From: a virus
Virus record (IMG/VR): IMGVR_UViG_3300023106_000028
Coordinates: 1-24,729 of that record
DNA length: 24,729 nt
Strand: one strand, 5' to 3'
Position 1 is the first letter of the stretch. Each line of letters opens with the position of its first letter. The notes beneath the pieces are model-generated. The model worked only from the letters and a program-made list of their open reading frames with translations, was not told the origin of the DNA and ran no database searches. Position numbers and translations under genes: made by a program. This document shows, piece after piece, positions 21,478-23,224 of the stretch.

Positions 21478-22752
21478 TCAAATGTTTTTTATTATTCCCT
21501 CATTGAACATCCATTGAACTCCATACGCTATACTATCCATTGCGTGGTTATCCTGGTCAACTGGTTTTTCTAATTGAACGCCTTTAGAATCTTTATCATA
21601 GCAGTATTCTTCTTGCTCAAATTCGATGTTTGGAGAATCATCTGTATAAAATATATTCAAACTGCTCAAAACACTAACCCTTACTTCTAAATCCATTTTA
21701 CGACCTACTGATTGAGCGTACTCCCACCCAGAATTACGTAATGAAAGTATTTTGTTTGGCCTGTTGCTATCGCAAATGATATGCGCATCGTAAGGTATGC
21801 CGAGCTTTCCGAATTGATTTGCAACTAAACCATCGTGGCCATCTACATCGCCTCTACGTATAGCTTGTAATTGTTCTGGCATCATACTTCGCTCTATTTC
21901 GTTTTCGCTTGCGTAATGTTTTTGCCTTACAAATAAATCTCCGTCATGATATTTAATTCCAGTAATTGCCCACGGATCAACCTTTCCCCAATCATTACCA
22001 AACACCTCCATAGAATCCATTGCAATGTATTTCTCCAAAGCAATTTTACCCCAGTTATAAATCCTGCCCTCAACTTGTCCGACTTCTCCAAGCCCATAAA
22101 CACGCCACATATTAGCCCAATAATTATTTATTATGACTAACTCGCCTTTTTCATTTACAGCAAAATCTCCTGTTTCTGTATCAAATAAATAGCCACGTTG
22201 CTTATATCTTAATATCTCGCTACGCTCTTGCCAGCTTAAAAACTCGTTATCCAGGAATGTTAGTTTAATGAAATCGCAATCATCACGAGTTAATACTTCT
22301 GTATGGAACCAAAACTTTTTGTTAGGATTAAAGTCGATGATTACTCGTTTTGCTCTTGATGTTAATTCTCTGTAAGTATCAAATTTTACTTTGTTCCCCT
22401 CGTTAATAAACATTATATCAGATCGCAAACCCTTACCTATATCAACTTTATCAAGTCCTATAAACTTAATAAAGCTGCCATTAGGAAATCTGTATAAAGT
22501 TCCGTCAACCCATCTTAAGCGTTCAAATATTCCGAACGAAACCATGATGTTAACGAAATCTTTAATTACGGTAATGCGCATCTTAGAAAGCTCTTCTGAT
22601 GCAACGAAAATTTCTTTATTTGGATTTGAACTGGCGTGATTGACTAATAGCTGAAGTATTCCGTATGTTTTACCTGCTCCCTGTCCTCCTTGAATGCCCC
22701 AAATTCGTTTTTTAAGGCCCGCTATTTTACGTAGTGCTGTCGTCGCTTGCAT
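21478..22752 (-). CDS. terL: Terminase large subunit
   Basis: This 424-residue DNA-packaging motor ATPase and nuclease is complete. Walker A is GGQGAGKT at residues 22-29. Walker B is DIMFINEG at 112-119 with the catalytic Glu at 118. The C-terminal RNase H-like nuclease has three acidic positions: the Asp in FGNDWGKVDPWA near residue 255, the Asp in HIICDSNRPNK near 320, and the Asp in HAMDSIAYGVQWM near 405. Length and motif order are standard. The gene overlaps the small terminase by 26 bases, which couples their translation. It ends just ahead of the portal gene. Confidence 0.95.
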   Translation of the reverse strand: MQATTALRKIAGLKKRIWGIQGGQGAGKTYGILQLLVNHASSNPNKEIFVASEELSKMRITVIKDFVNIMVSFGIFERLRWVDGTLYRFPNGSFIKFIGLDKVDIGKGLRSDIMFINEGNKVKFDTYRELTSRAKRVIIDFNPNKKFWFHTEVLTRDDCDFIKLTFLDNEFLSWQERSEILRYKQRGYLFDTETGDFAVNEKGELVIINNYWANMWRVYGLGEVGQVEGRIYNWGKIALEKYIAMDSMEVFGNDWGKVDPWAITGIKYHDGDLFVRQKHYASENEIERSMMPEQLQAIRRGDVDGHDGLVANQFGKLGIPYDAHIICDSNRPNKILSLRNSGWEYAQSVGRKMDLEVRVSVLSSLNIFYTDDSPNIEFEQEEYCYDKDSKGVQLEKPVDQDNHAMDSIAYGVQWMFNEGIIKNI

Positions 22753-23161
22753 TATCGGCTAATGGATCTATCTGCATTAACTGAATGTTTGTTTTCTTTT
22801 GGTCGTTGTCTTTGATGTAGACGCCGATAATTTTACCTAATTCGGAAGTAGCTTTGTTTGCGCCAGCGGAATCAAATTTATACTCTCCAGTAGGTTCGCC
22901 CATAACCATTACAGGCTCAACGGTCATGCATCTATCTGCTATTGCCTTAAACCTTTCTTGAACCCATTTAGCATCAACAACAGCATCTTCACTAAGTTTT
23001 ATCCTTTGTTGTTCGATGTATGTTTCAATTTCCTCAATACAAAGTAATTGGCTTGCTTTTACTCTAGCTGTTTTTACGCTATAACCAGCCTCAATAGCTG
23101 CTTTCGTGCCGCTGTTTAACCTTAAATAAGCATCTGCAAATTTTTGATGTTGTAATTTCAT
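22727..23161 (-). CDS. terS: Terminase small subunit
   Basis: This 144-residue protein recognises the phage packaging site and activates the large subunit. The N-terminus (LQHQKFADAYLRLNSGTKAA, then IEAGYSVKTARVKASQLL) is a helix-turn-helix of the Terminase_2 type, in which 'q..FvdeYl...n.t.AAi.AGYs...A...a..lL' is the usual pattern. A middle coiled segment (YIEQQRIKLSEDAVVDAKWV) drives ring assembly, and a C-terminal region (GANKATSELGKIIGVY) contacts the motor. It begins at ATG 23161, 33 bases below a promoter-like TATATTTG and directly after a GTTAAC repeat cluster. Confidence 0.9.
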   Translation of the reverse strand: MKLQHQKFADAYLRLNSGTKAAIEAGYSVKTARVKASQLLCIEEIETYIEQQRIKLSEDAVVDAKWVQERFKAIADRCMTVEPVMVMGEPTGEYKFDSAGANKATSELGKIIGVYIKDNDQKKTNIQLMQIDPLADNASDDSTT

Positions 23162-23166
23162 GGATT

Positions 23167-23192
23167 GTTAACTTTTGTTAACTAATAGTTAA
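23167..23192. repeat. Phased GTTAA repeat / palindromes ahead of the small terminase gene
   Basis: GTTAAC at 23167 and 23177 and GTTAA at 23188 are spaced 10 and 11 bases apart, one helical turn. GTTAAC-TTTT-GTTAAC is a hairpin (23167-23182), and TTAACTA-A-TAGTTAA (23178-23192) is a perfect 7-base inverted repeat. The cluster fills the leader between a promoter-like element and the small terminase ATG. It could be an operator, or a binding site for the small terminase. Confidence 0.7.
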
Positions 23193-23193
23193 T

Positions 23194-23224
23194 CAAATAT
23201 ACGAATTAAAACTACTTTTCTAAA
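23194..23224 (-). promoter_or_regulatory. Candidate promoter for the packaging/structural operon
   Basis: The minus strand has TTTA (23224-23221), a 19-base spacer and TATATTTG (23201-23194). This matches the Bacteroidota -33 TTTG / -7 TAnnTTTG layout with one mismatch. It overlaps the last codons of the resolvase gene, and a transcript starting about 7 bases on would carry the GTTAA repeats in its leader before the small terminase ATG. Confidence 0.45.

Follow-up and report, generated by a model that had tools for sequence, protein, structure and literature searches.

What do the short, evenly spaced repeats between a promoter-like element and the small terminase gene of this phage do? The way in which small terminases recognise DNA at the start of packaging has been described as poorly defined (PMC4737164). 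The window, by which we mean the whole stretch of DNA that was analysed, is a complete virus record of 24,729 bases that is classed as linear, with end repeats absent, and its long open reading frames lie on the minus strand. The genes identified in it include those for TerL, a portal and a major head protein, together with a RusA-like open reading frame upstream of TerS. The small terminase subunit TerS (22727..23161, minus strand; PF03592, 144 aa) begins with a helix-turn-helix (HTH) DNA-binding domain (codons 1–60; 22982..23161, minus strand), and its end is overlapped by the gene for the large subunit TerL (21478..22752, minus strand; PF04466). The relatives of this TerL in cultured phages are mostly from phages of Bacteroides, Flavobacterium, Polaribacter and other Bacteroidota. 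A megablast of the region against phage records gave no match and the genome collections searched for TerS and TerL relatives contained none. Taking sequence comparison, a structural model and analogy together, we consider the repeats to be probably the recognition site of the TerS encoded just downstream, serving pac nucleation, autorepression or both.

On the plus strand, GTTAA occurs at 23167, 23177 and 23188, that is, at a spacing of 10 and 11 bp, and these words fill the stretch from the promoter box TATATTTG to the TerS gene. This is as the original prediction had it, apart from the leader length, which was given as 33 bases and measures 32 nt from promoter box to start codon. The coding-strand leader reads TATATTTG-ATTAAC-TATTA-GTTAAC-AAAA-GTTAAC-AATCC-ATG. 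Unit 1, ATTAAC (23188..23193, minus strand), adjoins the promoter and lies 11 bp from unit 2, GTTAAC (23177..23182, minus strand), which lies 10 bp from unit 3, GTTAAC (23167..23172, minus strand), adjoining the start codon. The exact phased triple occurs once in the window record; allowing up to two mismatches, 0.21 occurrences are expected and two are found, one of which is the same site read in a shifted position, and GTTAACNNNNGTTAAC has no further copy at 0 or 1 mismatch in the 24.7-kb record. As a separate matter, GTTAA is over-represented across the window record (130 observed versus 95 expected, with no shuffle reaching 130). We rejected the bare 16-mer GTTAACAAAAGTTAAC as a marker of the site, because among the 47 viral stretches that contain it exactly, many of them coding, a window-type TerS follows only in the direct relatives L003 and L026.

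The nearest relatives show how the units change. Those with the most similar TerS (L003, 97%, and L004, 89% identity) keep GTTAAC three times, unit 1 included, with unit 3 in the same place, and the next two (L005, 74%, and L006, 63%) carry GTAAAC three times with the 11 + 10 spacing unchanged. The loss of the repeats in close relatives, which the original prediction had set as its refutation, did not happen; the repeats were kept, with concerted changes. Between the window and L005, DNA identity is 96% in the promoter block, 58% in the leader, 67–69% in TerS codons 1–62 and 94% at the TerS C-terminus, and for this reason the leader and the DNA-binding domain look like one exchanged cassette.

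We then compared 14 different alleles of PF03592 TerS for which the whole leader was available, all from metagenomic contigs of related phages (the window, L005, L056, L121, L083, L118, L077, L078, L085, L140, L136, L075, L172 and L169). The set was drawn from TerL relatives, TerS relatives and an HMM search over all fetched contigs, and it includes all non-redundant matches with an E-value of 6e-29 or better, leaving out L074, which is truncated at its start, and near variants of three types (window, L005 and L056). Within the 36 nt before the start codon, a perfect hexamer repeat at lag 10 is found in 13 of the 14 alleles, with L118 matching at 5/6, so that the 10-bp pair formed by units 2 and 3 is common to all 14 at 5/6 or better and the claim of a phased protein site on one face of the DNA is supported. 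Dinucleotide shuffles gave a mean of 0.30 alleles and a maximum of 3 in 2000, and none of the other lags from 7 to 20 exceeded two alleles. The mean identity reaches 0.53 at lag 10, compared with ∼0.3 at most of the other lags; it rises again to 0.42 at lag 21, which corresponds to the third unit (11 + 10). A third unit placed 11 bp upstream can likewise be recognised plainly in L005 and L056, and less well (4/6) in L083. Since the hypothesis was built on the window, L005 and L056 and the pattern was then noticed by eye in L083, L077, L078 and L085, the alleles examined afterwards (L075, L118, L121, L140, L136, L172 and L169; n = 7) are given separately: six are perfect and one is 5/6. The word itself varies by allele (GTTAAC, GTAAAC, GTTTAG, CTAAAC, CTTTAC, TACACA and others), and the repeat unit of L172 is ambiguous because it has two different lag-10 pairs.

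The pattern is confined in its range. It was seen in 0/14 TerS leaders of phages from other phyla, a few of which have uncertain start codons, and is therefore no general property of PF03592-like TerS, a rule that we rejected on this sample; the lag-10 repeat is also absent in Polaribacter phage P12002L, whose TerS is a weak homologue. Two short TerS-like proteins that lack a Pfam match have lag-10 repeats of their own, AATAGG at 6/6 in L080 (before 3748) and TCAAT at 5/6 in L060, so the principle may extend beyond PF03592.

To which element does the word belong? In the sequences compared it changes with the DNA-binding domain of TerS rather than with promoter, upstream gene or TerL, which agrees with the proposal of a recognition site for the adjacent small terminase. 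Near-identical domains with GTAAAC units occur in L005, L053 and L065 (L053 and L065 have GTTAAC as their first unit), and their TerLs differ, being of the window type (98%), of the L056 type (97%) and one ∼50% identical to the L056 type. Conversely, one TerL type (L053, L056 at 97%, and L118 at 89% over the part available) is paired with three domains and three leaders. The word is retained between TerS proteins of moderate similarity: L083 and L118, at 56% TerS identity, both have TAAAC cores, and L056 and L121, at 67%, both have GTTTA cores. As the leader and the domain adjoin, linkage alone could transmit them together; linkage does not account for the finding that, in every allele, the word is present in two or three matching copies with one common helical register.

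The box TATATTTG (23194..23201, minus strand) agrees with TAnnTTTG, the −7 promoter element of Bacteroidota; it is invariant among the relatives and is predicted to act as a promoter. A −33 element is uncertain. A scan with GTTTTAATTCGTATATTTG returned 13 stretches, of which 11 run into TerS or TerS-like genes and two (L061 and L062) into other genes. The promoter is followed by the GTTAAC-type TerS, the GTAAAC-type TerS, a third PF03592 TerS (L056, L058 and L059) whose leader, GTTTAG-N5-GTTTAG-N4-ATTTAG, is again spaced 11 + 10, the short TerS-like gene of L060 mentioned above, and two gp3-like TerS genes (PF16677; L055 and L057) whose start codon follows the promoter by 3–5 nt. No repeats precede the gp3-like TerS genes of L055 and L057, and since the promoter is the same, the repeats belong to the TerS type and not to the promoter. 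The near-invariant promoter block (window 23194–23219; L003, L026, L053–L060 and L006) precedes terminases of at least three families and has at least three different upstream genes, and it looks like a fixed joint for the exchange of packaging modules.

Window TerS scores 57.5 bits against PF03592 (gathering cut-off 26.1), and the other 13 alleles are also above the cut-off, directly or via a near-identical sequence (L005 via L065/L053, which have the same domain). In an AlphaFold2 monomer model built from 19 TerS sequences, confidence is confined to the N-terminal domain, with a pLDDT of 86–90 over residues 1–50 and low values elsewhere, and helices are predicted at 3–15, 18–24 and 32–41. 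The best PDB match of the predicted domain is the SF6 TerS DNA-binding domain, 4ZC3 (TM 0.92 by target length, rmsd 0.7, E 7e-3), followed by full-length SF6 TerS, 3ZQQ, and the model thus points to an N-terminal HTH with the SF6 fold. The alleles differ at the predicted recognition helix, ∼32–41. By inspection of examples, ARVKASQLL goes with GTTAAC, ARSKASQLL with GTAAAC and ADQIAYNLL with GTTTAG, a suggestive pairing; the alignment of diverse TerS proteins was too variable for a motif search. At the other end of the protein, TerS proteins accompanying the window-type TerL (those of the window, L077, L078, L075, L081 and L091) are otherwise different and have in common a tail like QLMxxDPLxD (22727–22765 in the window), while those with an L056-type TerL end differently, in NIINLGGGxDPNxATS. 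The tail may dock to TerL, or the association may reflect linkage, as the tail adjoins the TerL start. In L075, an open reading frame starting GIYKITSPSGKVYIGQS (L075:3366–4004) lies between terS and terL and may encode a GIY-YIG homing endonuclease.

Several other explanations for the repeats were weighed against these data. The original prediction had offered an operator of the late operon. If such an operator were read by a phage regulator other than TerS, its place at a promoter would be suitable; this reading fits poorly because the same promoter is free of repeats before the gp3-like TerS genes, and because the window and L005, with promoter and upstream gene in common, differ in word and TerS domain together. 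We consider it quite improbable. Control at the RNA level, by a 5′ leader hairpin or RNA repeats acting on TerS translation, would draw on a leader that is probably transcribed and on a possible GTTAAC/GTTAAC hairpin beside the window start codon (−4.9 kcal/mol, z −2.1). The hairpin and the inverted repeat that had been described are indeed present in the window leader, because GTTAAC is a palindrome, but they are not conserved across alleles: the window-type hairpin has no predicted counterpart in five other alleles, whose leaders fold otherwise or not at all. At the level of sequence, then, it is the phased direct repeat that the relatives conserve, not the hairpin or the inverted repeat, and the 10/11-bp period matches the DNA helix, so that an RNA element is very improbable. 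Scarcely credible is the view that the repeats are functionless duplications, produced by replication slippage in an AT-rich leader and carried along with the TerS allele. A tandem 10-bp duplication would also yield lag 10, and in some alleles the match extends to 9 bases, yet matching hexamers mostly have differing spacers, the distance to the third unit is 11 bp, enrichment occurs at lag 10 only, and other gene starts mostly lack such a pair (a perfect lag-10 hexamer at 5/314 in related contigs).

A closer alternative keeps TerS as the binding protein and makes the site an operator only, through which TerS represses its own late operon while packaging starts elsewhere. In its favour, a protein bound to the repeats, downstream of the −7 box and ahead of the start codon, would block transcription. 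Against it, the searched records gave no further copy of the paired word that might serve as a separate pac site, although such a site would not have to contain the word again, and the well-studied relative SPP1 has its pac at the same place (PMC6316719); we regard a purely regulatory role as unlikely. In the phages of L083, L077, L118 and L169, each searched record contains the paired word a single time, as expected for a pac site or a single operator. In the L169 record, GTTTACCTTTGTTTAC (G005:C1:36283–36298), ∼1.8 kb upstream of the leader repeat (G005:C1:38052), repeats at 10 bp a word that belongs to other alleles, which may be chance or a further operator.

Returning to recognition by TerS for packaging and/or autorepression, comparative evidence supports that part of the original prediction, a phased TerS site on one DNA face; an operator read by another repressor is disfavoured, and neither hairpin nor inverted repeat is conserved. 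Computation shows the direct repeat with its phasing, the allele-specific word, the association of this word with the DNA-binding domain of TerS, and for that domain a predicted fold like that of SF6; as a ring could read the 10/11-bp register, we infer that TerS binds through two or three adjacent HTHs. TerS would form a probable ring that presents its HTH domains about one DNA turn apart, and two or three neighbouring domains would each read one hexamer on successive turns of one DNA face. Because the site lies approximately at the putative terS transcription start, bound TerS would repress its own operon, and it may also mark the spot to which TerL is brought in to start packaging, a dual pac and repressor role as reported for SPP1 G1P. 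The repeats come straight after TATATTTG, so that the site overlaps the TerS promoter or this putative start, as an autorepression operator does, and it lies over promoter and gene start with direct repeats, as an SPP1-type pac does.

A wider proposal has about an even chance of holding: that these Bacteroidota phages use a packaging code in which every TerS domain is matched to a hexamer of its own. Adjacent HTHs of the ring would read the hexamers in register, their sequence-specific and not shape-only recognition would determine which DNA is packaged, and domain and site would be swapped as a cassette across phages that differ in TerL. In vitro, the best-studied SPP1-like domain appeared non-specific, which led to a model of ‘conformational selection’ (PMC4737164). 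No report of spaced repeats at the packaging sites of small terminases came up in a literature search, a limited test of novelty. The related phages supply a natural series of matched pairs of TerS domain and DNA word in a fixed helical register, and if binding is as predicted, these would be evidence for sequence-specific, register-dependent recognition, would show which HTH residues set the word, and would provide minimal substrates (∼30 bp) for structures and swap experiments.

Among known systems, the cosB R sites of lambda are small repeated sites bound by gpNu1 near its own gene, and they differ from the window leader by their spacing, by the presence of an IHF site and by having fixed cohesive ends. 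Pseudomonas phage PaP3, like the window, has an HTH-type TerS, which forms a ring, is reported to bind DNA sequence-specifically and was modelled with two HTHs on ∼20 bp; PaP3 is a cos phage, the window model is only weakly similar in fold to 6W7T, and the portions of the PaP3 report consulted describe no phased repeats (PMC7672466). The closest likeness in layout is to SPP1/SF6, where pac lies over the TerS promoter and gene start and has direct repeats (PMC6316719, PMC4737164): SPP1 pac overlaps the beginning of gene 1 together with its RBS and the late promoters (PMC6316719), and SPP1/SF6 G1P, like the modelled window TerS, has an N-terminal HTH (fold match 4ZC3, 3ZQQ). In HTH-type rings, adjacent motifs lie about one B-DNA turn apart (PMC4737164). 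The SPP1 TerS–pac complex downregulates its own operon (PMC4737164), and a publication cited in PMC6316719 reported that SPP1 terminase represses its own synthesis; for the window, such repression, like pac cleavage, is predicted. The boxA repeats of SPP1 are absent from SF6, and the isolated SF6 domain was reported to bind with hardly any sequence specificity and not to prefer the SPP1 boxes (PMC4737164). In contrast, the units described here are short, six bases each, set exactly 10 (and 11) bp apart, and vary with the TerS domain, and the site would thus differ from SPP1-like TerS recognition sites in being an allele-specific word held in a fixed helical register.
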